From Verrucomicrobiia bacterium (lineage in GTDB: Bacteria > Verrucomicrobiota > Verrucomicrobiia > Verrucomicrobiales > DEV007): DNA of 64,000 bases. A program made the position numbers and the translations under genes. How positions within the stretch are numbered: position 1 is the stretch's first letter; each line of letters opens with the position of its first letter. Location of the stretch: positions 1 through 64,000 of the forward strand of contig JAUIAH010000016.1 in the NCBI GenBank assembly GCA_030425385.1, written 5' to 3'. The notes under the pieces were generated by a model. It did no database searches. It was not told where the DNA came from and saw only the letters and a program-made list of their open reading frames with translations. Shown in pieces: positions 1,419 to 40,738 of the stretch.

Positions 1419-3887
<2,469 letters not shown>

Positions 3888-3954: not shown

Positions 3955-4088
3955 CTTGCGTCTACAGGGTGGTGGTGCGTCACAAGAACGCCACAAGGGG
4001 CGCGTGGTCGGCCTCCCATGTGACAGGATCTTCACCCAAGGCCCATTTCTTCCCGCCACACGAAATCGCATGGATGAGGGCGTCAGTT

Positions 4089-7000
4089 ATGGTCTCGCAA
4101 CGCCCCCCGGCCTATCTCTTCGTGCTCACCTTCGCGTGGCTCATTGCAAGCGTCTGGCTTCCTGCTCAAGAAGCCGACGCCCCCTCTCCCGATGAGGCGA
4201 GTCCAGCCCCAGAGACGACACCTGTCGAGCCCGAGCCCACGGTAGAAACGGCTGCGCCCGCCGCCGGGGACCTGGATCTCTATCAGGATCAACTCTCCAA
4301 GCCTATTGAATCCAGCAAAGGACGCTTTGTCGGGAAAGCGTATGACGCCAAGTCCGGGAAGCCACTTGTGGGCGTGGCCATTCAAATCCAAGAAACAGGC
4401 GACCTCACCATCACCGACGACAAAGGCCGATTCATCATCGATCAAGTCGAGCCTGGCACATACACCATCATCATCAGTCAGACGGGCTACCAGCCCATGC
4501 AGGCGGAGGGCGTCTCCATCCGATCGGGCGAACTCACCACACTCGCCAGCGTCAGCGGCGCCTTGGAACCCGCGCCTGTGGAAGAAAGCGACGAAGTCTT
4601 CGAAATGGATGAAATCGAGGTCGTCGCAGAACTGGTGGAGGAGGGTCAGGATAGCACGCTATTCGATCAACAGGAGATGCGCGAACTCGTCAGCATGATG
4701 GGGAAAGAAGAATTCTCTCGGACGGGGGCGAGCAACGTGGGCGATGCTGTGAAGAACATGGCCGGTGCCAACGTGCGCGATGGCAAATACGCGGTCATTC
4801 GGGGATTGGGGGATCGCTACTCGAATACGACCTTGAATGGCGCCTATATTCCCAGCGCGGATCCCTCCAAGAAAGCGGTGCAGCTCGATTTGATTCCGAC
4901 CCATCTGGTGGAGCGACTGGTCACTTATAAGGTGTTCACGCCGCAATTGCCGGCGGAGTTCTCCGGTGGAGCCATCGATATCCAGACCATTCGTTTCCCA
5001 GAGGAACTCACGATTAAGGTAAGTGCTGGGATCAAATACGGCGAGAACACGACGGGCAAAGACCTATTGGTCAACGCTGACCGCGAATTGGATTATCTAG
5101 GCACGACCTCGGATGGCTTTCCCAATGGCATCCCGGATCCCTTTCCATTTCCAGGCGGTGACACGCGCGCGCGCAACCCGCCTAGCGATCGGCAAACGGA
5201 AGCGCAACGAGTCTGGAGTTCCTTGCACAATGCGGGTTCTTCGCGGCCCGATGTGGAAGAAGCACTCTTGGGACGCAGTTGGAGTGTGACCTATGGAAAT
5301 AGCGTGGATACCGATGTGGGCCAATTGGGGGTCGTCTTGGCAGCCAATCATTCGAGTGATTACCAATTGATCGAAGGACGGGAAGTGAACCGGGGAGCGA
5401 AGCTGTTCGAAGGAGAGTTTGGGTTAACGCAATCACAGGTTCAGGACAGTTACGACGTGGAAGTGAGCTGGGGTGGTCTCGCCAATCTGGCGTGGAAGCC
5501 AAACGACAAGCATGACTTGGGACTCACCGTGCTCCGCTATGTGTCGGCCCAAGATAGCGTGCAACGGGGAAGGCAGATTGCTTCGAGTGAACGTGGTATC
5601 ATCGCCGATCCCCGAGATGGCTTGCCGGGCGTGCCGGTGGAATACCTTGGGGCAACAGGGCGCGGGTTTGAGGCTTATGACGAGATCGGGTATCTCTATC
5701 GTAGTCAAGACACCGTCCAATTAGACGGTTCTCACAATCTGGGAGGCATGAATAGTGGCGTGAAGCTGGATTGGATCTTTAGCACTTCCGATGCCATCGA
5801 AGACCGGCCGGACCAGCGGCACCTCCGGGGCTTTAATGTCGATTTCGCGGATGGTTCCCTGGCCGATCACCCAAATGTGGATCCCGATACGTTGAACCCG
5901 GGCCTTGGATCGGTCTTCACCGCGACGAACGTCTTGGGAGATAACCGTGACAATGGATTTCGCGAGTATTTGACGACGGAGGAAAGTCTCTGGCAGTTAA
6001 AGAGTGATCTTACTATTCCACTTTGGGAGCCCGATGAAGATCGGAAATTCGAATTGAAGATGGGCTATTCCTATAGCAGTAGGGAACGGCAAGTTCGAGG
6101 GCGTTTCTTCAGTTACAATTACGGGAATGATATTCTTCGCCAGATTAATGATAGAAATAGTGCCATAGGGATTGATTTCTTAAGGGACTTTGACAGTGAT
6201 GTTGATATTCTGGGGCTGCGTCGAGAGGGGATTCAGCTAGACGATCAAACCGCGCGAGGGAATACGGTGAGGAACGTCGACGCTTTTTCCCGCATCAATG
6301 CCGCCTATATCATGGGAAATTTCACTTGGGGTGGTTTGGAAATTGTGGCCGGAGCTCGCTTTGAACGAGAGCAACGCTCCTACAAGCTCCTGCAAGGGCT
6401 AAACCAAACGGCGTTGGTAAACGAACTGAACCCAGATGACGTTGAGAAGAATGCCTATCTATTGCCAGCGTTGTCCTTGAAGTACGCCTTCGGCGAGGAC
6501 GATAATCACATCCTGCGTTTCGGTTATGGGCGCACGTTGGCGCGTCCCACGTTCTACGAGTACGCGCCCGTGCGGACAGTTGACCAGGCGACTGGGGATG
6601 AGATTCGGGGCAACCAGGCGCTTACGGATACACTGATCGATAACTTTGATCTCAAGTATGAATACTATCCGACACCGGGTGAGTTGTTCTCGGTCAGCCT
6701 CTTCCACAAGAAGATGACAGATCCGATCGTGACGATCGTTCAGAATACTTCGGGCAGTGGCTCTTTCCGGAGTTGGCAGAATAGTCCGGGCGGTTTTATT
6801 CAGGGCGTTGAACTCGAGTATCGGAAACGCTTCTTGGACTATTTCACCCTGGCGACGAATGCGACTTATATCCGTTCTGAGATTGAAGGGGTCGTCGACG
6901 ATCAGGGGCGTTCGCTCGGATCGGGCACGGTATTTGAAGGGCAGCCCGAATGGATCTTCAATGCGCGGCTCAGCTTCGATCACGAGGATTGGGGAGTGAA

Positions 7001-7262
7001 GGCTGATTTGAATTACAACTATGTGAGTGATATTCTCACCAATGTCAGTGCGGATCCGCGCGTTTCCAACATCTTTCAAAAGGCCACCCATAGCCTCGAC
7101 TTCGTCGCGTCCAAATCATGGGAGAATGGTTGGGCAGTGAAATTCTCCGCCAAGAATCTCTTGGATACGAAGCGGGAACAGTTTTATGAAGGTGAGGGCC
7201 TCGTCTACGATGGCTATCGCACGGGCCGGACGTTTAGCCTGGGTGTGAGTTACGACTACTGA
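4089..7262 (+). CDS. TonB-dependent receptor with N-terminal carboxypeptidase-like domain
   Basis: Outer-membrane active transporter that takes up a scarce ligand with energy from TonB-ExbBD. From the ATG at 4089 it has 1057 residues: signal peptide about 1-26; an acidic, Pro-rich linker; a carboxypeptidase-regulatory-like (Ig-fold) domain about 75-150 (GRFVGKAYDAKSGKPLVGV to QTGYQPM); a possible TonB box around EMDEIEVVAEL; the plug about 195-300 (NVGDAVKNMAGANVRDG, YAVIRGLGDRYSNTTLNG, PAEFSGGAIDIQT); and a barrel ending in the aromatic tail VSYDY. A longer frame opens at GTG 3969, but its first 40 residues precede the signal peptide. ATG 4074 is also possible; 4089 is preferred because GAGGG lies about 9 nt upstream. 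The next two genes are secreted and may belong to the same uptake unit. The ligand is unknown. Confidence 0.93.
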   Translation: MVSQRPPAYLFVLTFAWLIASVWLPAQEADAPSPDEASPAPETTPVEPEPTVETAAPAAGDLDLYQDQLSKPIESSKGRFVGKAYDAKSGKPLVGVAIQIQETGDLTITDDKGRFIIDQVEPGTYTIIISQTGYQPMQAEGVSIRSGELTTLASVSGALEPAPVEESDEVFEMDEIEVVAELVEEGQDSTLFDQQEMRELVSMMGKEEFSRTGASNVGDAVKNMAGANVRDGKYAVIRGLGDRYSNTTLNGAYIPSADPSKKAVQLDLIPTHLVERLVTYKVFTPQLPAEFSGGAIDIQTIRFPEELTIKVSAGIKYGENTTGKDLLVNADRELDYLGTTSDGFPNGIPDPFPFPGGDTRARNPPSDRQTEAQRVWSSLHNAGSSRPDVEEALLGRSWSVTYGNSVDTDVGQLGVVLAANHSSDYQLIEGREVNRGAKLFEGEFGLTQSQVQDSYDVEVSWGGLANLAWKPNDKHDLGLTVLRYVSAQDSVQRGRQIASSERGIIADPRDGLPGVPVEYLGATGRGFEAYDEIGYLYRSQDTVQLDGSHNLGGMNSGVKLDWIFSTSDAIEDRPDQRHLRGFNVDFADGSLADHPNVDPDTLNPGLGSVFTATNVLGDNRDNGFREYLTTEESLWQLKSDLTIPLWEPDEDRKFELKMGYSYSSRERQVRGRFFSYNYGNDILRQINDRNSAIGIDFLRDFDSDVDILGLRREGIQLDDQTARGNTVRNVDAFSRINAAYIMGNFTWGGLEIVAGARFEREQRSYKLLQGLNQTALVNELNPDDVEKNAYLLPALSLKYAFGEDDNHILRFGYGRTLARPTFYEYAPVRTVDQATGDEIRGNQALTDTLIDNFDLKYEYYPTPGELFSVSLFHKKMTDPIVTIVQNTSGSGSFRSWQNSPGGFIQGVELEYRKRFLDYFTLATNATYIRSEIEGVVDDQGRSLGSGTVFEGQPEWIFNARLSFDHEDWGVKADLNYNYVSDILTNVSADPRVSNIFQKATHSLDFVASKSWENGWAVKFSAKNLLDTKREQFYEGEGLVYDGYRTGRTFSLGVSYDY

Positions 7263-7343
7263 CAAACTGAATTGTCGTTGGATGTCAATGTGACGATCTA
7301 GCCTTCTGGTTGCTTCAGGCACTTCCCAGTGTCAACCTTTTCG

Positions 7344-8765
7344 ATGAAATCGGTGCATGTGATGCTTCTGGCCGTGGGATGCTTGCCTTCCGCGATGATT
7401 TGGGCGAATGACTATTTGAAGCTAGAGGACTTTTCGGGCTTCCAAGGGGTCCTGAATGACCGCGATCGCTTCATTATTGCGGTAGCTTCCAATGAGAAAG
7501 GACCAGATGGCGTGTTTCGCCACAGGGTGTTTCCAGACTCGGTGGGTCGATTGGTTCCAATGGAGACGGTGCCGCTTTTGTTAGAAGCGCCCTTGAAACA
7601 GAACGCTGATCTCGGATTTCAAGAAATGCTCGTGACAGATATGAATGGGGATCGGGTGCCTGACCTGGTGGTCTCCCGAGAATTGGGCCGGTTGGTTTGG
7701 TACGAAGGGGACTTTGATGACGGCTTCTATCAGCTGGATTCGTATACGCATATCCTGGGGCGAGGTGAGGTGAGTAAGGTGACTCAACTGGCCGCCGGAG
7801 ACCTAGATGGCGATGGCGATCAAGATGTGCTCTTTAATCTCCTGGGGGAATTGGAGTGGTTAGAACAACCGGCCCATGCCTCTGATGATGGTCCCTCGTG
7901 GGCGCGTCACGCGACTGCTATTGAACACCAACGAAACGACGATGCGGTGGTGAGCGATTTAGATGGCGATGGGCTGGCTGATATCGTCACGATTCAAATG
8001 GAAGGGAATAGGGCGTCCCTTTCATGGTGGAGGAACCAAGGGAAAGAGGCAGGCTTTCAAAAGGAGGAACTGGCTACCATCACGAGCCAAGTTTATCGCC
8101 AGCCAATGACAATGACCGTGGCAGACATGGATGCTGATGGGCACCGTGATGTGGTCTTTCTGGATGGAAACGGTGTCCTCAACTGGTTAAAGAATCCAGT
8201 TGTGGCGGAGGAGACATGGGAGAGGCGGCGCATCTTTGTTCATGGTCGACCGACTTCACACCTGATTACAGCGGACCTGGATGCCGATGGTGACGTAGAC
8301 GTGCTCCCGTCAGAAAGCGGCTATTGGTATGCGAATCAAGGAGTGGGCGAGCCTTGGAAGCAACAATACCTCCCGATCTCCAAGGACGATCCAGACGAGA
8401 TGACGATGATGGCTGAGGACTGGAACGGTGATGGCTTCATGGATCTGGCCATGGTGTATGGCGATGATCACATTGAGATCGAGGTCATCGCGGGTCCCTT
8501 GACAGCAGACTCGCCTACTTTTGTCCGGCCTCTAGAACTACCTCAACCGGAGTTTGAACAGCGGGTCTTGGGCAACGAAGATTACCTCAACCTATCGTGG
8601 CAAGCTCAGGCCGACGTGATTGACATCGTGGAAATGAGTGAGGATCTTAAAACCTGGGAGATCTGGTCAACGAAGAACCCCGGGAACAGCGATCGTTCCT
8701 CGCTGACCTTTGCTAAGGCAGTTCCCGAAGGCGCTTATTTCCGGATTCGTCGTGTGCGCGAGTGA
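7344..8765 (+). CDS. Secreted FG-GAP/VCBS repeat protein
   Basis: Exported protein with a beta-propeller of FG-GAP/VCBS repeats, each carrying a calcium-type loop. At least six D-x-[ND]-x-D-G-like loops are visible: DMNGDRVPDLV, DLDGDGDQDVLF, DLDGDGLADIV, DMDADGHRDVVF, DLDADGDVDVL and DWNGDGFMDLA. Residues 1-21 (MKSVHVMLLAVGCLPSAMIWA) form a signal peptide, which argues for the ATG at 7344 over the GTG at 7329; no clear Shine-Dalgarno is present. The last ~75 residues hold the module seen in other secreted proteins here (MSEDLKTW ... AYFRIRR). It lies 81 bp after the TonB receptor and about 215 bp before the giant repeat protein, all on the same strand. Such propellers usually mediate binding; no enzyme motif is visible. 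Confidence 0.88.
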   Translation: MKSVHVMLLAVGCLPSAMIWANDYLKLEDFSGFQGVLNDRDRFIIAVASNEKGPDGVFRHRVFPDSVGRLVPMETVPLLLEAPLKQNADLGFQEMLVTDMNGDRVPDLVVSRELGRLVWYEGDFDDGFYQLDSYTHILGRGEVSKVTQLAAGDLDGDGDQDVLFNLLGELEWLEQPAHASDDGPSWARHATAIEHQRNDDAVVSDLDGDGLADIVTIQMEGNRASLSWWRNQGKEAGFQKEELATITSQVYRQPMTMTVADMDADGHRDVVFLDGNGVLNWLKNPVVAEETWERRRIFVHGRPTSHLITADLDADGDVDVLPSESGYWYANQGVGEPWKQQYLPISKDDPDEMTMMAEDWNGDGFMDLAMVYGDDHIEIEVIAGPLTADSPTFVRPLELPQPEFEQRVLGNEDYLNLSWQAQADVIDIVEMSEDLKTWEIWSTKNPGNSDRSSLTFAKAVPEGAYFRIRRVRE

Positions 8766-8982
8766 GTGTGGAAGCGTGTGACGGAATTGGCACGACAGAA
8801 CGCTCCTTTGTTGAAGTGAGTCTGTGTTAGTGGTGGCTGTTGGAGTGTGTAAGTTCTTGGGAATGAGTAGGTTGATGGGTGTTGTTGCGGGGGGTGTTAG
8901 ATGAAATCTTCGTCGTGACGGAGTTGTAACGAACTTCGAAATCACATTGTGCAAAGCCCAGGTTAGAAAGGGCGGAACCTGT
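8766..8982. other. G/T-rich leader before the giant repeat protein
   Basis: About 217 bp with a strongly G+T-biased top strand, especially 8765-8900, unlike the surrounding coding DNA. A candidate Shine-Dalgarno (AAAGGGCGGA) lies about 6-14 nt before the ATG at 8983. An in-frame TTG at 8947 would add 12 residues ahead of the signal peptide and is less likely. I see no stable hairpin. Confidence 0.35.
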
Positions 8983-11900
8983 ATGAAGATAATGAAACCA
9001 ATCCCCCTAACCCTGGCGGCGGTCCTTGCCCTTGGCACCCTTTCGGTGCGGGCAGCAGATGTGCCGGTGACCGCCAATATCACCCAAGACACGACGTGGA
9101 CGGCGGACAATGAGTATTTGCTCGGTCAGCCCATCTTCGTGACGGACGGCGCTACCCTAACCATTGAGCCTGGCACCACGGTCTATGGATTTGAAGACGT
9201 CGGAAACGGCACCTTTGGCTCCCTCATCATTACTCGTGGGAGTAAGATTATGGCTGAAGGCACCAAGGAGAACCCCATCGATTTCACGGCTTTAGATGAG
9301 CGTGATGGCGGTCTCACCCTAGAGGACAGCTCTCTCTGGGGCGGTCTCATCATCCTTGGGAATGCGGTTCTTAATGACGCCGACAACCCGGTTCTCAATC
9401 CCGACAATCCTGTGCTCAATGAGCGTGAGATTGAGGGTTTCCCTGCCGGTGGAAACAATGACTTGATCAGATACGGCGGTCTTGATGATGCGGATAATTC
9501 TGGCGTCCTTCGTTATGTATCCATTCGCTACGGCGGCTTCGAGTTCGAAACAGATGAGGAGATCAATGGTCTCACACTGGGCGCGGTTGGTTCCGGCACC
9601 ACGATCGAATATGTCGAGGTCTTCAACAACTCCGACGATGGCGTCGAATTCTTCGGTGGCACGGTAAACACCAAGTACCTGGTGATGGCCTTTAACGAAG
9701 ATGAACAATTCGACATTGACCAAGGCTACCGTGGTAAGAACCAATTCTGGTTTGGCATTGGGAAAAGCGTAGGTGCTGGCTCCAACTACGGAGGTGAGCA
9801 CGACGGCGGTGACAGCCCCGACAAAACGCTTGAGCCGTTTTCCCGGACCAACGTGTATAACGCCACCTTCCTCGGAAGTGGTGTCAAGGGCGGCAACCCA
9901 CAGACAAACACCGCCTTCCGTTTGAAGGACAACTTTGCGGGACAGTATCACAATTCCATCTTTGGTGATTTCCCAGGCCAAGCGGTTCGGATCGATGACG
10001 ATTCGACGAAAGAGCGCGCGAACACGGAAGGTGACCTCGCTTTCCGCAACAATCTCTGGTTCGATATCGGATCCTACGATGGCACGGCTGCTTCCTTGAC
10101 CCTCAACGGCAGTGCGGAGGAAATCAAAGTGGTGAGCGAGAATGGAAATGATTATGCGAATCCTTACCTTGCTGGCGTCAGTCGCCAGGCAGGTGGTGGT
10201 CTGGATCCTCGTCCGCATCCTGCTGGCCCCGCTTATTCGAATAGCCGGTCGGACATTCCAGCCGATGATTTCTACACCGCCGTGAACTACGTGGGTGCCT
10301 TCTCCGCGGAGGACAATTGGATGGAAGGATGGACGTATCTCTCTCGTGGAGGTTACCTTCCCGAAGCAGCGCCCGCTGAGCTGACGGACGTGACTGTCAC
10401 GGAGAACATTACGGCCGATACGGTCTGGACGAACGACAATGCATATCTCTTGGGGCAGCCCATCTTTGTGACGGAAGGCGCGACACTGACGATCGAAGCG
10501 GGCACCACCATTTATGGATTTGAAGATTTGGATGCTGGTACCTTCGGCTCCTTGATCGTCACGCGCGGATCCAAGCTTTACGCTGAGGGCACACGTGACC
10601 TTCCGATTGTCTTCACCGCGCTTGATGTTCGCGACGGAGCGCTCACCCTGGAAGACAGCTCTCTTTGGGGTGGGGTGATTCTTCTCGGAAACGCAGTCTT
10701 GAATGATGCTGGCAATCCTGTGATTCAAGCGGATAACCCGATCCTTAACGAGCGTGAGATCGAAGGTTTCCCCGCTGGTGGCAACAACGATTTTATCAAA
10801 TACGGTGGTCTCGACGACGAAGACAATTCCGGATCCTTGCGCTTTGTCTCCATCCGCTACGGCGGTTTCGAGTTTGAGACGGATGAAGAGATCAACGGAT
10901 TGACCTTAGGTGCGGTTGGTTCCGGCACGACCATTGAGTTCGTGGAAGTCTTCAACAACTCGGATGACGGCGTCGAATTCTTCGGCGGCACGGTGGACGT
11001 CCGTTACATGGTAATGGCGTTCAACGAAGATGAGCAATACGATATTGACCAAGGGTATCGCGGTCGGGGCCAATTCCTCTTCGCCATCGGAAAAAACGTG
11101 GGTGCTGGCTCCAATTATGGTGGCGAGCACGACGGTGGCGATAGTCCTGACAAGACGCTTGAGCCCTTTGCGCGGAACAAATTCTACAACGTGACCTATA
11201 TTGGTAGCGGCGCGGGTGACGATGGGAATCCACAGACAAACGCTGCGTTCCGTTTGAAGGACAATTATGCAGGTCAGTATCACAACTCGATCATCACGGA
11301 CTTCAAAGATTACGCGATTCGGATCGATGACGATGCCACGAAAGAGCGGGTGAATACTGAAGGTGATCTCTTCTTCGGAAACAACACTTGGTTTGGATTC
11401 GGGGCTGTAGAGGAAGGCAATTTCACTTCCTACACGCTGAATGGATCCGCCGAGGAACTCCTGGTCTTGTCGCAAGCGCGCGGCAACACGTTTGAAGATC
11501 CTCAATTGCGCGGTATCAGCCGTGCGGCCGATGGCGGGCTTGATCCACGCCCCCTGGCAAGCAGTCCAGTTTTCGGAGCGACGCTCAGCGACTTCCCAGA
11601 CGACCAATCTGGTTTCTTCACACCAGCTGATTTCCGCGGTGCCTTTGGTGCCCTCAACTGGGCAGAAGGCTGGACGGCCCTTTCGGAACAGGGTTTCGTG
11701 GCGGAAGGCGGTGCGGTGACGGATGTTGCCGTGACGGAGAACATCACGGAGGATACCACCTGGACAGCCAACAACGCCTATCTCTTGGGCCAGCCGATCT
11801 TTGTGACCAATGGTGCCACGTTAACCATTGAGCCAGGAACGACTGTTTATGGATTTGAGGATATTGAAGGCGGCACTTTCGGCTCCTTGATCATCACTCG

Positions 11901-14900
11901 TGGAGCGAAGATCATGGCTGAGGGGAGCAAGACGGATCCCATTGTCTTCACCGCGCTTGATGAGCGTGATGGCGAATTGACCTTGGAAGACAGCTCTCTC
12001 TGGGGCGGGTTGATCATTCTGGGACAGGCAATTCTCAATGATGCCGACAACCCGAACATCAATCCTGACAATCCGGTGCTCAACGAGCGCGAGATCGAAG
12101 GATTTCCCGCAGGTGGAAACAACGATTTCATCAAATACGGTGGTCTCGATGATGACGATAACTCTGGCGTCCTCAAGTATGTGTCGATCCGCTACGGTGG
12201 CTTCGAATTTGAGACTGATGAGGAAATCAATGGATTGACCCTCGGAGCGGTTGGACGCGGCACGACGATCGAATACGTGGAGGTCTTCAATAACTCCGAT
12301 GATGGCGTTGAGTTCTTCGGGGGAACGGTGAACACGAAGTATCTTGTGATGGCCTTCAACGAAGACGAGCAGTTCGACATCGATCAAGGTTATCGCGGCA
12401 TGAACCAATTCTGGTTCGGTATTGGAAAGAGCGTGGGTGCCGGCTCTAACTACGGCGGCGAGCACGATGGCGGCGACAGCCCTGATAAGACGCTTGAGCC
12501 TTTTGCACGTTCTCAGGTCTACAATGCTACCTATCTTGGTAGTGGAGTGAAAGGCGGCAATCCTCAGACGAACACAGCATTCCGTTTGAAAGATAACTTT
12601 GCGGGCCAATACCACAATTCCATCTTTGGTGACTTCCCCAACCAAGCCGTTCGAATCGATGATGATTCCACCAAGGAGCGGGCAAACACGGAGGGTGACC
12701 TTTCGTTTGAGAATAACCTCTGGTTTGACTTCGGTTCCTATGACGGTACCGCAGAATCGCTGACCCTCAATGGCAGTGCAGAGGAAATTGCGGTAGTCAG
12801 CAGCAATGGCAATAATTACGCCAACCCATACCTCGGTGGTATCAGCCGCCGTCCACACGGCGGTCTTGACCCTCGCCCGGTTGCTGGTGGTCCCGCGTAT
12901 TCCAACGGTCGCTCCGGAGTGCCTGACAATGGCTTCTATGACCAAGTGAACTATGTGGGTGCCTTCTCAGCTAATGATAACTGGATGGAAGGTTGGACCT
13001 ACCTTTCTCAGAAAGGATATTTGTCCAAGCCCGCGCCGACGACCACAACAGACGTGGCAGTGACGGAGAATGTCACTGAAGACACTACCTGGACGAATGA
13101 TAAGACCTATCTTCTCGGTGCGCCGATCTTTGTCACCAATAATGCGACGCTCACGATCGAGGCTGGCACGGAAGTGCTCGGTTTTGAGGATCTCGACGCT
13201 GGGACCTTTGGATCCCTGGTTGTCACTCGCGGCGCTAAGATCTACGCGGAGGGCACACGGAGCAATCCCATCGTCTTCTCCGCCTTGGATGCGCGCGCGG
13301 GCGGCTTGACGCTGGAAGATAGTTCCCTCTGGGGCGGCCTGATTGTTCTCGGGAATGCCGTTCTCAATGATGCGGGTAACCCCATCATTCAGCCGGATAA
13401 TCCTGTTCTCAATGAACGCGAAATCGAAGGCTTCCCTGCTGGCGGAAACAACGACTTCATCAAATATGGTGGTCTCAATGACGAAGACGATTCTGGTGTC
13501 CTTCGTTATGTCTCCATCCAATACGGTGGGTTCGAGTTTGAGACGGATGAAGAGATCAATGGATTGACGCTCGGTGCGGTTGGTTCGGGCACCACGGTCG
13601 AGTTTGTGGAGGTCTTCAACAATTCCGACGATGGCGTCGAGTTCTTCGGCGGCACCGTGGATGTTCGTTACATGGTGATGGCCTTTAACGAAGATGAACA
13701 ATACGACATTGATCAAGGATATCGGGGCCGTGGTCAGTTCCTCTTCGCCATTGGCAAGAACGTGGGAGCTGGCTCCAACTACGGTGGCGAGCACGACGGT
13801 GGCGATAGCCCTGACAAGACGCTTGAGCCTTATGCGAGGAATCAATTCTACAACGTGACCTACATCGGTAGCGGTGCGGGTGATGATGGGAATCCGCAGA
13901 CAAACGCTGCCTTCCGCTTGAAGGACAACTACGCCGGTCAGTATCACAACTCCATCATCACGGACTTCAAAGACTATGCGGTGCGTATCGATGATGATCC
14001 GACGAAAGCTCGGGTGAATGAAGGCGACCTTGCCTTCATGAACAATATCTGGCACGGCTTTGGTTCCGGTGATGGGTCCGATCTTGCAGCGTTGACGCTG
14101 AATGGTTCCGCAGAGGAACTTCTGATCCTTGCGGGTGACCGCGGAAACCAGGTGACCGATCCTTTCCTCCGCGGCATCAGCCGGACGGCAGACGGCGGTC
14201 TTGATCCACGACCCTCTCCCGGCAGCCCTGCCATCGGTGGTTCCCTCAGTGGTTTCCCTGAAGGTCAATCAGGCTTCTTTACGACGGTGAATCACAAAGG
14301 AGCGTTCCGCGACGTCAACTGGATGAACGGGTGGACGCAGATCTCACGTGATGGTTACATTGGAAATCTCCCAGGCGTGGGTGGCATCAATGATGTGACC
14401 GTGGCTGAGAACATCACGGAAGATACCACCTGGACATCCGATAAGAACTACCTCCTCGGACAACCCATCTTCGTGACGAATGGTGCGACCCTGACCATCG
14501 AGCCAGGAACGACCGTTTATGGCTTTGAAGACACGGCCTTAGGAACGTTCGGTTCGTTGATCATCACCCGTGGCTCCAAGATCATGGCCGAAGGCACGAA
14601 GGACGCTCCGATCGTCTTCACGGCCCTTGACGCACGCGACGGCGAGTTGACCTTGGAAGACAGCTCCCTCTGGGGCGGCTTGATCATCCTCGGAAACGCC
14701 ATCTTAAACGATGCGGATAATCCGATCATCAATCCTGACAACCCAGTGCTCAACGAGCGCGAGATCGAAGGGTTCCCCGCTGGCGGAAACAACGAGTTCA
14801 TCAAGTATGGTGGTCTCGATGATGACGACAACTCCGGGGTGCTTCGTTATGTGTCTATTCAATACGGTGGATTCGAGTTCGAGACGGACGAGGAAATCAA

Positions 14901-16545
14901 CGGCCTGACGCTCGGTGCGGTGGGACGTGGCACGACGATCGAATACGTCGAGGTCTTCAATAACTCGGATGACGGGGTCGAATTCTTCGGCGGCACGGTG
15001 GACGTGAAGTATCTCGTGATGGCCTTCAACGAAGACGAACAATACGACATCGACCAAGGATATCGCGGTCGTGGACAGTTCCTCTTCGCCATCGGCAAGA
15101 ACGTGGGTGCCGGTTCCAACTACGGCGGTGAGCACGACGGCGGGGATAGCCCTGACAAGACGCTTGAGCCCTATGCTAGGAGCCAATTCTACAACGTGAC
15201 CTACATCGGTAGCGGTGCGGGTGATGGTGGGAATCCACAGACGAACGCTGCCTTCCGCTTGAAGGACAACTTCGCGGGTCAGTATCACAACTCCATCATC
15301 ACGGACTTCAAAGATTACGCGGTGCGTATCGATGATGATCCGACGAAGGCTCGGGTAAACGACGGCGATCTGTTCTTTGGGAACAATACCTGGTTCGGCT
15401 TCGGATCTGGTGATGGATCGGACCTTGGGGCGCTGACCCTCAATGCCTCGGCAGAGGAACTACTCGTTCTTGCGGCCGATCGCGGCAACGCGGTGGAAGA
15501 TCCGCAGTTGCGCGGCATCAGCCGGACGACCGACGGGGGTCTCGACCCACGGCCTCTGAACGCTAGCCCCGTGATGGGCGCAGCCCTCTCCAATCTCCCA
15601 GAAGGCGACTTCTTTGAGACGGTCAGTTATCGTGGTGCCTTTGGTGCCGAGAACTGGATGGACGGGTGGACCAAGCTGTCCCAAGACGGTTACCTCGGCG
15701 ATCTCGACGGCGGGCCAGCGGCTGGTCCACAAGATGTGACCCAACCCGGCGACGCGATTGTCCTCGTCAACGGCGTGAATGATGACGATGCCGATGCCGG
15801 AGCGCCTCCGGGGGCGGAAGGGGTGGAGAATGCCATCAACAACGTGACCCAGAAGTATCTCAACTTCCTTGACCTGGGTTCCGGCTTGATCGTCACCCCA
15901 GGCGTGGGAGCGACGACTGTCGGCGGCTTGAATCTCTACACCGCTAACGACGCGGTCGAGCGTGACCCCGCTAGCTACAAGTTGGAAGGTTCGGTTGCCG
16001 GTGCCGATGGCCCGTGGAGCCTGATCTCGGAAGGACCGCTCGCATTGCCTGACGAACGGAATGACGGTGGCGACATTCCCATCACCGCTGATCTCAATCG
16101 TCAGGTGCTCGCCTTCGATAACGAATGGGCCTACCTTTCTTATCGTCTCACCTTCCCGACCTTGAAAGACGCGGCGAATGCCAACAGCATGCAGATCGCT
16201 GAGATCGAATTGACGGGTGCTGCCGGTGGCACGTTGGATCCCAATCCGCCGGTCGATCCCGAGTTGGATTCCGATGGCGACGGCACACCGGATGCCGTGG
16301 AGATTGCCAATGGCACGGATCCTAACAACCCTGCCAGCTTCTTCACCCTTGCCTCCGTGGCTGCTGGTGAGCTGAGCTGGGCCAGTGGTGAGGGAGCCAC
16401 CTATGATATCGAATACTCCGAAGATTTGGTGACCTGGAATGTGGTGGGAACAGTCCAGGGCACCGCTGGTCAGTCCAGCTTCTCCGAGACCGATGCCGGA
16501 CGTTTGGGCAAAGCGTCAGGCTACTATCGAGTGGTCTTGAAGTAA
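8983..16545 (+). CDS. Giant secreted protein with five tandem beta-helix-like units
   Basis: About 2520 residues. Signal peptide 1-25 (ends SVRAAD). Then five units of about 438-447 residues start near residues 26, 469, 914, 1357 and 1804. Each opens with a VTENIT..TTWT-like strand, then LLGQPIFVT, ATLTIEPGTTVYGFED, TRGSKIMAEG, EDSSLWGG, EREIEGFPAGGNN, GGFEFETDEEINGL, DDGVEFFGGTV and GSNYGGEHDGGDSPDKTLEP, closing with WMEGWTYLS. These glycine/asparagine-rich rungs fit a right-handed beta-helix. A single such unit is, from memory, a familiar secreted protein beside TonB receptors in Bacteroidota and Proteobacteria. After unit 5 come a discoidin-like domain (~2245-2405), a calcium-type DSDGDGTPD repeat and the YSEDLVTW...YYRV C-terminal module. 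Start ATG 8983 follows AAAGGGCGGA. A 3' hairpin ends it. Function unknown; a surface binding role beside the TonB receptor is inference. Confidence 0.9.
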   Translation: MKIMKPIPLTLAAVLALGTLSVRAADVPVTANITQDTTWTADNEYLLGQPIFVTDGATLTIEPGTTVYGFEDVGNGTFGSLIITRGSKIMAEGTKENPIDFTALDERDGGLTLEDSSLWGGLIILGNAVLNDADNPVLNPDNPVLNEREIEGFPAGGNNDLIRYGGLDDADNSGVLRYVSIRYGGFEFETDEEINGLTLGAVGSGTTIEYVEVFNNSDDGVEFFGGTVNTKYLVMAFNEDEQFDIDQGYRGKNQFWFGIGKSVGAGSNYGGEHDGGDSPDKTLEPFSRTNVYNATFLGSGVKGGNPQTNTAFRLKDNFAGQYHNSIFGDFPGQAVRIDDDSTKERANTEGDLAFRNNLWFDIGSYDGTAASLTLNGSAEEIKVVSENGNDYANPYLAGVSRQAGGGLDPRPHPAGPAYSNSRSDIPADDFYTAVNYVGAFSAEDNWMEGWTYLSRGGYLPEAAPAELTDVTVTENITADTVWTNDNAYLLGQPIFVTEGATLTIEAGTTIYGFEDLDAGTFGSLIVTRGSKLYAEGTRDLPIVFTALDVRDGALTLEDSSLWGGVILLGNAVLNDAGNPVIQADNPILNEREIEGFPAGGNNDFIKYGGLDDEDNSGSLRFVSIRYGGFEFETDEEINGLTLGAVGSGTTIEFVEVFNNSDDGVEFFGGTVDVRYMVMAFNEDEQYDIDQGYRGRGQFLFAIGKNVGAGSNYGGEHDGGDSPDKTLEPFARNKFYNVTYIGSGAGDDGNPQTNAAFRLKDNYAGQYHNSIITDFKDYAIRIDDDATKERVNTEGDLFFGNNTWFGFGAVEEGNFTSYTLNGSAEELLVLSQARGNTFEDPQLRGISRAADGGLDPRPLASSPVFGATLSDFPDDQSGFFTPADFRGAFGALNWAEGWTALSEQGFVAEGGAVTDVAVTENITEDTTWTANNAYLLGQPIFVTNGATLTIEPGTTVYGFEDIEGGTFGSLIITRGAKIMAEGSKTDPIVFTALDERDGELTLEDSSLWGGLIILGQAILNDADNPNINPDNPVLNEREIEGFPAGGNNDFIKYGGLDDDDNSGVLKYVSIRYGGFEFETDEEINGLTLGAVGRGTTIEYVEVFNNSDDGVEFFGGTVNTKYLVMAFNEDEQFDIDQGYRGMNQFWFGIGKSVGAGSNYGGEHDGGDSPDKTLEPFARSQVYNATYLGSGVKGGNPQTNTAFRLKDNFAGQYHNSIFGDFPNQAVRIDDDSTKERANTEGDLSFENNLWFDFGSYDGTAESLTLNGSAEEIAVVSSNGNNYANPYLGGISRRPHGGLDPRPVAGGPAYSNGRSGVPDNGFYDQVNYVGAFSANDNWMEGWTYLSQKGYLSKPAPTTTTDVAVTENVTEDTTWTNDKTYLLGAPIFVTNNATLTIEAGTEVLGFEDLDAGTFGSLVVTRGAKIYAEGTRSNPIVFSALDARAGGLTLEDSSLWGGLIVLGNAVLNDAGNPIIQPDNPVLNEREIEGFPAGGNNDFIKYGGLNDEDDSGVLRYVSIQYGGFEFETDEEINGLTLGAVGSGTTVEFVEVFNNSDDGVEFFGGTVDVRYMVMAFNEDEQYDIDQGYRGRGQFLFAIGKNVGAGSNYGGEHDGGDSPDKTLEPYARNQFYNVTYIGSGAGDDGNPQTNAAFRLKDNYAGQYHNSIITDFKDYAVRIDDDPTKARVNEGDLAFMNNIWHGFGSGDGSDLAALTLNGSAEELLILAGDRGNQVTDPFLRGISRTADGGLDPRPSPGSPAIGGSLSGFPEGQSGFFTTVNHKGAFRDVNWMNGWTQISRDGYIGNLPGVGGINDVTVAENITEDTTWTSDKNYLLGQPIFVTNGATLTIEPGTTVYGFEDTALGTFGSLIITRGSKIMAEGTKDAPIVFTALDARDGELTLEDSSLWGGLIILGNAILNDADNPIINPDNPVLNEREIEGFPAGGNNEFIKYGGLDDDDNSGVLRYVSIQYGGFEFETDEEINGLTLGAVGRGTTIEYVEVFNNSDDGVEFFGGTVDVKYLVMAFNEDEQYDIDQGYRGRGQFLFAIGKNVGAGSNYGGEHDGGDSPDKTLEPYARSQFYNVTYIGSGAGDGGNPQTNAAFRLKDNFAGQYHNSIITDFKDYAVRIDDDPTKARVNDGDLFFGNNTWFGFGSGDGSDLGALTLNASAEELLVLAADRGNAVEDPQLRGISRTTDGGLDPRPLNASPVMGAALSNLPEGDFFETVSYRGAFGAENWMDGWTKLSQDGYLGDLDGGPAAGPQDVTQPGDAIVLVNGVNDDDADAGAPPGAEGVENAINNVTQKYLNFLDLGSGLIVTPGVGATTVGGLNLYTANDAVERDPASYKLEGSVAGADGPWSLISEGPLALPDERNDGGDIPITADLNRQVLAFDNEWAYLSYRLTFPTLKDAANANSMQIAEIELTGAAGGTLDPNPPVDPELDSDGDGTPDAVEIANGTDPNNPASFFTLASVAAGELSWASGEGATYDIEYSEDLVTWNVVGTVQGTAGQSSFSETDAGRLGKASGYYRVVLK
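9058..15705 (+). repeat. Five in-frame tandem repeats of ~1.33 kb
   Basis: Direct repeats inside the giant gene start at 9058, 10387, 11722, 13051 and 14392, with lengths about 1329, 1335, 1329, 1341 and 1314 bp. Two subtypes alternate. Units 1 and 3 (type A) carry NTKYLVMAF, QFWFGIGKSVG, FGDFP..AVRIDDDSTKE and NYANPYL. Units 2 and 4 (type B) carry DVRYMVMAF, QFLFAIGKNVG, ITDFKDYA and RGISR..DGGLDPRP. Unit 5 is type A in its first ~600 bp and type B after about 14995. Confidence 0.95.
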
Positions 16546-38317: not shown

Positions 38318-40738
38318 ATGGATGATCATTCCTTGATCCTGGCCTACAGCCGCTGGGGCGATGAGTCTGCTTTTGCCCAATTGGTTGAGCGTCACTTGCC
38401 GCTGATCTATGGAACCGCTTACCGCGATCTAAGGGATCATCACCTGACGCAAGATCTTTGTCAGAATGTCTTCATCGCCCTTGGTCGAGCCGCTCAGAAG
38501 GACAGGTTCATCCATTCGGTCCCTGCCTGGCTTTACGGAACCACTCGCAAACAAGTTGCCCTCATGATTCGCGCTGAACGTCGTCGCCACGATCGAGAAC
38601 GTCGTTTGGCTGAATATGCCGTCGCTGCGCAAGAGGATGCCCCAGCTTCTCAAGTCGATCTCATCGCCTTCGTCCAAGAGGACCTGGCCACACTCTCTCC
38701 CAATGATCAGCAATTGCTCTTTCTCCGATTCTACGAAGGCCGTTCTCTGCGAGATGTCGGCCAGCATCTCGGAGTCAAAGAGAAGACGGCTCAGAAGCGC
38801 GTCGAACGCGCAGTCCAACGGCTCAGCACACTCCTTTCGCGCCGCAAACTCACGCTCACAGCGAGTCTGTTAGTGCCCCAAGTGTTCACGGCGGGCGCGG
38901 TCTCGCCTCCTACACACCTTGCCACCTCCGTGACCGGATCTGCTCTTGCGATTCTCGCGGCCCCCACGCCGGCGTGGAGCCTAACACCACAGGGCCTTGC
39001 TAGCCTCGGGGGCGGAGCCCTCGCGGCTATAGCGACCGTGAGCATACTTGCACAACCACCAGAATGGACCGTAGAAGAGGTCTCAGTGGTGGTTGCCGAG
39101 CAGCGATCGTCGCTGCTCACTCCAAGGAGCTCTGTCAAAGATGCCTCACTGACCGATATTGAAACGATCCTTGCCTTGGTGAAATCCAATCGAGCCAAGG
39201 CACTTTCGCGTCTCTCCAAGCTCCTTTACGAGGACCGAGTGGACTTCCGCCAGCTGACCGAATGCACCCGAGCTTACGCTCAGGAGGAACCCCTTCGTAT
39301 CGCTCAGTTTCTGGTGGAACTTTACCGTCTCCATCAGGAATCCCACCACGCGGAGTCTATTGGATCATTGATAGAAATTTCCATTGAGATCGCTTTTGAG
39401 TTACAGCCGGACAATTCTGCAAACTGGGTGGAGACTCTGCCGCGAACCGATCTCGCTGAAGCCTACGCCTTCGAGGCTCTCTTGAAATGTCGGGCGCGGC
39501 AGAGCATTCCCAAAGCTCTATCAGAACTTTACGCGCGGCCTCATGCCCGTGACCGCGCCTTGCAGGTCCTCGGTGAGATCCTTACAGAGCTCCCCATGGA
39601 GCAAGCGCTCGCAACCCTAGCGCAAACACCAGAATCTCCGACGCTTCTTTCTCAATCCCACCAGGCGAGAACGGCCATCTGGCGGCAGGAAGCTGGGAGA
39701 ATTCACGAACGGTTCATGGCGCTGTGCTTTCCGCAGCTCTATGAGAAGGACGCGACGGCCCTTGCTTCATGGATTCTTGAACAAGTTCCCTCACCACAAT
39801 CCTCACAATTGATTGGTCTCCTTGTTTCGCATTGGAGTCCTGATGCTCCTGAGGCAGCGAGAATGTGGATCAGTCAACTCGACGGAAACGAGCATCGTGC
39901 AGCGACCGTCGCCCTGGCACAGGGCTGGGCGCAAACCGATCCCGAAGAGGCGCTCGCATGGAGTCGAAGTCTTGAAGGCGATGCGCTTCAAGACTATGCG
40001 ACGGAGGCTGCGTTTGCTGCTTGGTTAGACCATTCTCCGAAGCAGGCCCGCGACTGGGCTCAGCAAACTGAGGGAGGCAACCGTCAGTCACGAACGTTTG
40101 TTGCTCTCGCCGTGGAGACCTTGCCTGCAGAAGAGGCCTATCAATGGGCTTCGTCCTTGTCTCCGGGCGAACACCGCGACGAAGCGCTGCGGCGCGCCTT
40201 CTACAAACTTGGACAATCCGCGCCCAAGTTCGGGCGCGTGCATCTCGAACGTCTCCCTAACTCGGCTCTCTATCCATCTGCACACACCTTTGCTCTGGGC
40301 AGATTGGTCAACGGTGGCCGCCAAGAAGTCGCGGCGTGGAAAGCTAGCCTGACACCAGACTCCTTGCTCCACCATGCCATTGCCAGCGCCGAGGTGAATC
40401 TATTAGCATCCATCAGTCCTCAGCTAGGCGCGAAGGTTGCGTTTGCTCTGCCTGCGAGCACCCTTCGAGATCCTGTGGTGATCCAGCTGATCGAGCGGAC
40501 GGCTCATCGTTCGATGGCAGACTTGGCCCAGGCACGCGCGTGGACCAGCGAGATTTACGAGGTGGCGATTCGAACAGAGACGATTGCTCGCCTGGACGAA
40601 ATTGCGGCCGTTCTTGAGAAACGCCCGATGGGAGCCGTTCTTCCAGAGAGCACCCCATCGGATTTCCGCTCACAGCCGCTCGACACCTTGCTAGAGCACC
40701 TCGAAACGCTTGCCTCCATCCCAACCTCGCGCCCTTAG
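38318..40738 (+). CDS. ECF sigma factor with membrane segment and long helical C-terminal extension
   Basis: 806 residues. Sigma-70 region 2 lies at about 8-78 (DLCQNVFIALGRAA 46-59, WLYGTTRKQV 71-80) and region 4 at about 120-175 (LSPNDQQLLFLRFYEGRSLRDVG and a helix-turn-helix LGVKEKTAQKRVERA), like group ECF factors of PVC bacteria. Two hydrophobic stretches follow (about 180-196 and 224-245), the second a likely transmembrane helix. The remaining ~560 residues are helical repeats with patterns such as WAQTDPEEALAWSRSLEGD and WASSLSPGEHRDEALRRAF, resembling TPR/HEAT-type solenoids. If the helix spans the membrane, the tail is periplasmic and may sense a signal and control the sigma domain. 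No anti-sigma factor is adjacent. The ATG is 16 bp after the split gene. Confidence 0.88.
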   Translation: MDDHSLILAYSRWGDESAFAQLVERHLPLIYGTAYRDLRDHHLTQDLCQNVFIALGRAAQKDRFIHSVPAWLYGTTRKQVALMIRAERRRHDRERRLAEYAVAAQEDAPASQVDLIAFVQEDLATLSPNDQQLLFLRFYEGRSLRDVGQHLGVKEKTAQKRVERAVQRLSTLLSRRKLTLTASLLVPQVFTAGAVSPPTHLATSVTGSALAILAAPTPAWSLTPQGLASLGGGALAAIATVSILAQPPEWTVEEVSVVVAEQRSSLLTPRSSVKDASLTDIETILALVKSNRAKALSRLSKLLYEDRVDFRQLTECTRAYAQEEPLRIAQFLVELYRLHQESHHAESIGSLIEISIEIAFELQPDNSANWVETLPRTDLAEAYAFEALLKCRARQSIPKALSELYARPHARDRALQVLGEILTELPMEQALATLAQTPESPTLLSQSHQARTAIWRQEAGRIHERFMALCFPQLYEKDATALASWILEQVPSPQSSQLIGLLVSHWSPDAPEAARMWISQLDGNEHRAATVALAQGWAQTDPEEALAWSRSLEGDALQDYATEAAFAAWLDHSPKQARDWAQQTEGGNRQSRTFVALAVETLPAEEAYQWASSLSPGEHRDEALRRAFYKLGQSAPKFGRVHLERLPNSALYPSAHTFALGRLVNGGRQEVAAWKASLTPDSLLHHAIASAEVNLLASISPQLGAKVAFALPASTLRDPVVIQLIERTAHRSMADLAQARAWTSEIYEVAIRTETIARLDEIAAVLEKRPMGAVLPESTPSDFRSQPLDTLLEHLETLASIPTSRP

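Follow-up and report, generated by a model that had tools for sequence, protein, structure and literature searches.

Within the window, the 64,000-nucleotide stretch of DNA analyzed here, one gene encodes a secreted protein in which five homologous units follow each other in a single reading frame. The features of the locus are listed below.

3969–7262, plus strand: TonB-dependent receptor with an N-terminal CarboxypepD_reg domain, the presumed partner of the five-unit protein
7329–8765, plus strand: FG-GAP protein gene, between the receptor gene and the five-unit gene
8983–16545, plus strand: coding sequence of the five-unit secreted protein, 2520 amino acids counted from the ATG (the ORF listing opens at TTG 8947)
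8983–9054, plus strand: Sec-type signal peptide MKIMKPIPLTLAAVLALGTLSVRA, read directly; a four-unit ortholog (L006) has a comparable one
9055–10383, plus strand: unit 1, type A (AlphaFold2 model pLDDT 90.6, right-handed beta-helix)
10384–11718, plus strand: unit 2, type B
11719–13047, plus strand: unit 3, type A
13048–14388, plus strand: unit 4, type B
14389–15702, plus strand: unit 5, A/B hybrid, type A to about residue 205 and type B beyond
15703–16260, plus strand: module of about 180 amino acids, lectin-like by eye (model pLDDT below 50 there)
16261–16542, plus strand: TSP3_bac repeat and strand-rich tail ending in YYRVVLK, present again in numerous large ORFs of the genome

Organization of the five-unit gene

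All five units are contained in the single frame of ORF 8947–16545 (+), for which ATG 8983 is the likely start, since the protein of the L006 ortholog begins with MKKMKRLPLTLAAILAL at the equivalent place. The signal peptide contains no cysteine, and a lipobox is absent. The sequence-only reading of this DNA had described a secreted protein with five in-frame units of about 1.33 kb in one ORF; the Sec signal supports the first point, and repeat finding with protein-level comparison confirms the second. Its coordinates (9058–15705) hold for the array to within 3 nt, but stop short of the signal peptide (from 8983) on one side and of the C-terminal region of 280 amino acids (to 16545) on the other.

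The units, each of approximately 440 amino acids, start 1329, 1335, 1329, and 1341 nt apart according to repeat finding and are 71–86% identical in pairwise protein comparisons. Every one of the five is under purifying selection, with dN/dS between units of approximately 0.04–0.10 (NG86, pairs where dS was computable), and dS is near or at saturation in several pairs. Exact nucleotide matches between units extend to at most 43 nt, so collapse or expansion of the array from short reads is unlikely. Considered together, the level of identity, the short maximum repeat, the low dN/dS, and the near-saturated dS indicate that the array is old and has been maintained by selection in each unit. An assembly artifact is very unlikely and is rejected on the basis of the 43-nt longest repeat, the 71–86% unit identity, and the existence of an A-B-A-B ortholog in the same genus.

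Comparison of the window protein with the four-unit L006 ortholog separates the units into two types, A and B, which alternate as A-B-A-B, an organization overlooked in the sequence-only reading along with the hybrid nature of unit 5. Upstream of residue 205, this last unit has type A states at both diagnostic sites, and from 205 onward nearly all diagnostic sites are of type B. Trees built separately for the two halves agree: its C-terminal half groups with the B units (support 98/96), and its N-terminal half falls outside the B group (94/95). From these patterns we infer an ancestor with A-B pairs, the third of which would have been merged by recombination to give the hybrid unit. G011, from a different genus of the same family, has two units that are most similar to each other (79.6%), pointing to a separate duplication or homogenization in that lineage.

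The L006 ortholog shares the tail of the window protein, its best unit is 82% identical, and it too is preceded by a TonB receptor, 86% identical over 246 amino acids. It differs in having four units, in lacking the 180-residue module and the FG-GAP gene between receptor and unit gene, and in being followed directly by DUF3450-TtpC-ExbB-ExbD genes.

The C-terminal region gives 56 matches across the genome that encodes it. Several further large ORFs of the same genome contain copies of the 180-residue module at 44–68% identity, and a 1761-aa frame on contig C58 (G000:C58:67542-69476) has four of them in tandem. The TSP3 and YYRV-type tail is found in dozens of large ORFs, with the Pfam match limited to the short TSP3 part, and may serve in sorting or anchoring in a lineage-specific manner.

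Fold of the unit and its conserved acidic site

The AlphaFold2 model of unit 1, built on an alignment of 37 units, reached a pLDDT of 90.6 and a pTM of 0.93, and the unit is modeled with high confidence as a right-handed parallel beta-helix. The best Foldseek match to this model was chondroitinase B (E = 2.9e-3), with nothing below E = 1e-3, and a second structural aligner gave Z scores of about 18–22 against pectate lyase 9A, AlgE4, NosD, and phage tailspikes. The earlier description of the unit as beta-helix-like is thus supported by the single-unit model and the structural alignments. At the sequence level, a PDB search with the unit returned no match, and Pfam and NCBIfam gave no significant match for the window's units, the weak tapirin and Beta_helix matches lying below cut-off. 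A model of units 4–5 with the tail has strands in its last approximately 70 residues and no predicted structure in the rest of the tail; its pTM of 0.47 is too low to define the inter-unit geometry or the tail fold.

Among 125 non-redundant, diverse units, the acidic positions E127, E169, D194, D195, E198, D216, D/E217, D220, D222, and E248 are 98–100% conserved, as are N171, Q230, and N269. The acidic residues are retained in all five window units. No Lys, Arg, or His reaches 90% conservation among the 125 units. The acidic cluster is read as a putative site for binding metal and/or ligand, and not as the active site of a lyase.

The fold is that of pectate lyase-type enzymes (PL1/PL6/PL9, GH28), and it could be argued that the protein is a tandem enzyme, each unit being a polysaccharide lyase, hydrolase, or phosphodiesterase with the near-invariant D194, D195, E198, D216, D220, D222, and E248 as its active site. 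However, no counterpart of the conserved catalytic Lys/Arg of the PL1/PL6/PL9 and GH28 enzymes is found among the columns conserved at 90% in the 125 units, and the probably related protein ElpS, discussed below, showed no alkaline phosphatase activity when refolded or immunoprecipitated (PMC2996285), which makes an enzymatic role improbable.

Copy number and gene neighborhood in other genomes

Searches for the unit covered 38 relatives, 388 genomes from the phylum, 387 from the order, and 75 from the family, as well as 248 and 295 Bacteroidota genomes and 320 genomes from another verrucomicrobial order; altogether, 1,766 partly overlapping genome searches were made. It is present in 221 of 295 Bacteroidia genomes and in many Verrucomicrobiota. 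One unit is the rule. Two-unit forms are frequent, including in Verrucomicrobiota and Bacteroidota, and also occur in the Proteobacteria Pseudoalteromonas and Indioceanicola; three-unit forms were found in several Verrucomicrobiota and Bacteroidota. Four units are present in the same genus as the window (L006, identical in contig and coordinates to G003) and in a 2027-aa frame of G1572, and at least four in L012, where the ORF is cut by the contig end. Five units were found in the window protein only. The genomes are samples, the larger scans scored 4–7 candidates per genome, and units are often interrupted by contig ends; the number of long forms is therefore a lower bound and probably an underestimate. 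Within that bound, the survey revealed no second five-unit ORF, and the view that five units are common is rejected. According to the sequence-only reading, a five-unit form is not known to have been described, and none came to light here; its picture of an isolated tandem form gives way to a series, since two to four units occur elsewhere. The window protein is the longest member seen of a widespread domain family, not a new kind of protein, and no description of multi-unit forms was found in the literature searched.

Some two-unit proteins carry further domains. In a single ORF of 2178 amino acids (L017:7570-14103), the two units are joined to a Phytase-like domain (PF13449) and to Ig domains, and another two-unit protein is fused to a BNR/Vps10-like propeller and cadherin-like repeats (L019:8854-14391).

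The earlier statement that relatives adjoin TonB receptors was borne out in 58 of 60 unit loci: a receptor was present at 40/40 loci from diverse genomes and at 18/20 further Bacteroidia loci, vs. 0/40 control regions chosen at random from ten closed genomes. At the first 40 loci, DUF3450 was found at 18 (0/40 controls), TtpC/ExbB at 19 (1/40 controls), and ExbD at 16 (0/40 controls). The order DUF3450-TtpC-ExbB-ExbD-TonB-TPR resembles the six-gene TonB2 operon of Vibrio, in which DUF3450 corresponds to TtpB2 (PMC6957404). In the window organism, TonB2 genes are not linked to the five-unit gene and lie on contig C48, their relatives in L006 being linked. This cluster, of the DUF3450-TtpC-ExbB-TonB-TPR type, adjoins an OmpR/PhoB-type response regulator (L107, G000:C48:164000-171100).

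The receptor pairing also bears on the possibility that the protein is a structural surface fiber, as suggested earlier, or an adhesin, in which tandem beta-helices simply extend reach. Tandem repetition and a C-terminal tail common to many other large ORFs would fit such a role, but the near-constant TonB-receptor pairing, the invariant acidic site, and the existence of single-unit relatives, which cannot be fibers, count against it and leave it very improbable.

In five loci from Kiritimatiellae, Verrucomicrobia, and Phycisphaerae (L021, L023, L024, L033, and L034), the unit gene and the receptor gene are separated by the gene for a conserved protein of approximately 420–460 amino acids (cluster C6); the one tested, from L033, has no Pfam match.

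Probable relation to ElpS and proposed role

In a tblastn search, unit 3 matched a Sphingomonas protein (36% identity, E = 6e-24) and an Indioceanicola protein (E = 4e-35), both alphaproteobacterial and encoded in loci comprising a unit gene, a TonB receptor, type II secretion protein N, gspD, gspE, and others. In Caulobacter, the layout elpS-cc0171-gsp has been described and is said to be common to Sphingomonas (PMC2996285). The unit-receptor-gsp order in Sphingomonas and Indioceanicola equals elpS-cc0171-gsp, and a putative membership in the ElpS/FI–FIII family of TonB-partner beta-helix domains (about 430 amino acids) goes by way of homologs in the same gene order. By this route, the domain of the five-unit protein is probably homologous to ElpS of Caulobacter and to FI, FII, and FIII of Flavobacterium. 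No gsp genes were recognized adjoining the five-unit gene. In PMC12872454, "ElpS" matched nothing more than the abbreviated title of a journal in the reference list.

ElpS (CC0170) of Caulobacter crescentus is an extracellular protein with a TonB receptor nearby (PMC2996285), and the window protein is likewise secreted and near a receptor. ElpS is about 50 kDa, the equivalent of one unit, and has a lipobox, whereas the window protein has five units, a TSP3 tail, and no lipobox. Because MKIMKPIPLTLAAVLALGTLSVRA contains no cysteine, the window protein is classed as a carrier of a related domain and not as an ElpS lipoprotein. FI, FII, and FIII of Flavobacterium johnsoniae (Fjoh_3856, 0546, and 4889) are lipoproteins with polygalacturonase homology, two of the three adjoining TonB receptors and one lying in the phoBR operon (PMC8115612). 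They differ from the window protein in being lipoproteins of another phylum, and the likeness is one of gene arrangement and description. As in this family, the window gene stands beside a TonB receptor on the same strand (3969–7262), with the one FG-GAP gene between.

This probable relationship, missed in the sequence-only reading, suggests a functional setting. Phosphate-starved Caulobacter produces ElpS as a surface lipoprotein, which is repressed by phosphate and not induced by iron depletion; it is apparently no phosphatase itself, and its TonB receptor neighbor is thought to act with it (PMC2996285). FI–FIII are among the proteins most strongly induced under phosphate depletion and are reported to be related to ElpS (PMC8115612). 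Pst, PhoU, or PhoB-type genes occur within about 9 kb at 14/60 unit loci (23%) vs. 0/40 controls (p = 4e-4), an enrichment that is only suggestive since the controls come from ten genomes and the loci are not phylogenetically independent, and PhoB/PhoR BLAST matches at 32–39% may represent other OmpR-type regulators. The receptor-unit pair has a PhoB-type gene next to it at three Bacteroidia loci (L232, L233, and L236), and the PhoR/PhoB genes beside receptor and unit in some Bacteroidia resemble the Fjoh_0543-0546 arrangement. The Phytase-like fusion in L017 is also counted in favor of phosphorus. No pho genes were recognized in the parts of the window examined, and Pho boxes near genes (8 sites vs. 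5.5 expected by chance) were not significant. A phosphate role is the best-supported reading, and one we hold with somewhat better than even confidence.

Two other ligands have to be weighed. The first is a glycan: the protein could capture oligosaccharides for a carbohydrate TonB receptor, in a SusD-like role within a polysaccharide system unrelated to phosphorus. SusC/SusD-type pairing is a precedent, the closest structural matches are to polysaccharide lyases, epimerases, and tailspikes, sulfatase and CotH/chitobiase-domain genes are present in the window, and glycan binding has also been proposed for FI–FIII by the Flavobacterium authors (PMC8115612). Nonetheless, no carbohydrate-active gene cluster was recognized among the neighbors examined, Pho/Pst markers recur at unit loci, and the reported induction of ElpS and FI–FIII is by low phosphate. 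The unit itself has no SusD Pfam match (PF07980/PF14322) and is a beta-helix rather than the helical SusD fold. A glycan ligand is thus considered rather unlikely.

The second is iron or heme. HxuA, a hemopexin-binding surface beta-helix protein reportedly paired with the TonB receptor HxuC (PMC4873976), offers a parallel, although it has a heme ligand and two-partner secretion and is likened by description. Iron uptake is the function most often associated with TonB2 systems, those of the TonB2/TtpC type in Vibrio import siderophores (PMC6957404), and siderophore genes lie near the Pseudoalteromonas homolog. Against this, ElpS responds to phosphate and not to iron depletion, as noted above, and the phosphate-responsive loci of Flavobacterium are reportedly repressed under iron limitation (PMC8115612). 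Iron or heme acquisition is therefore improbable.

Returning to phosphorus, the five-unit protein is most likely, though only moderately so, held at the surface and multivalent, acting as a scavenger or as a docking protein for the receptor, with acquisition of phosphorus as the probable purpose. Export would be through Sec, and the C-terminal tail probably retains the protein at the cell surface. There, the conserved acidic site of each domain would probably bind metal and/or ligand, and the domains would capture or position a nutrient, most likely phosphorus-containing, for the neighboring TonB-dependent receptor. The receptor is probably energized by a TtpC-type TonB2 system, the genes of which are neighbors in the closest relative and lie on a different contig here. 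Having several units may provide more capture sites per molecule or a longer reach from the cell, and multivalent binding by five units is plausible. Regulation by phosphate in the window organism would be expected by extension from the homologous loci.

More tentatively, and with less than even confidence, tandem multiplication of an ElpS-type domain may be a recurrent, independently evolved route to multivalent surface proteins that capture phosphorus compounds for a single TonB receptor. The present extreme would be the five-unit form, with its A-B pairs and recombined last unit. For a widespread domain whose scanned units have no significant Pfam or NCBIfam match, a link to ElpS, FI–FIII, TonB2 machinery, and a near-invariant acidic site makes the function directly testable, and the series from one to five copies offers natural constructs for determining what multivalency adds to TonB-dependent uptake.

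Two further genes of the window may be mentioned. A catalase-peroxidase (KatG) is encoded at 1680–3887, just upstream of the TonB receptor, and positions 38318–40738 encode a protein of 806 amino acids with sigma-70 regions 2 and 4 at its N-terminus and a long C-terminal extension.
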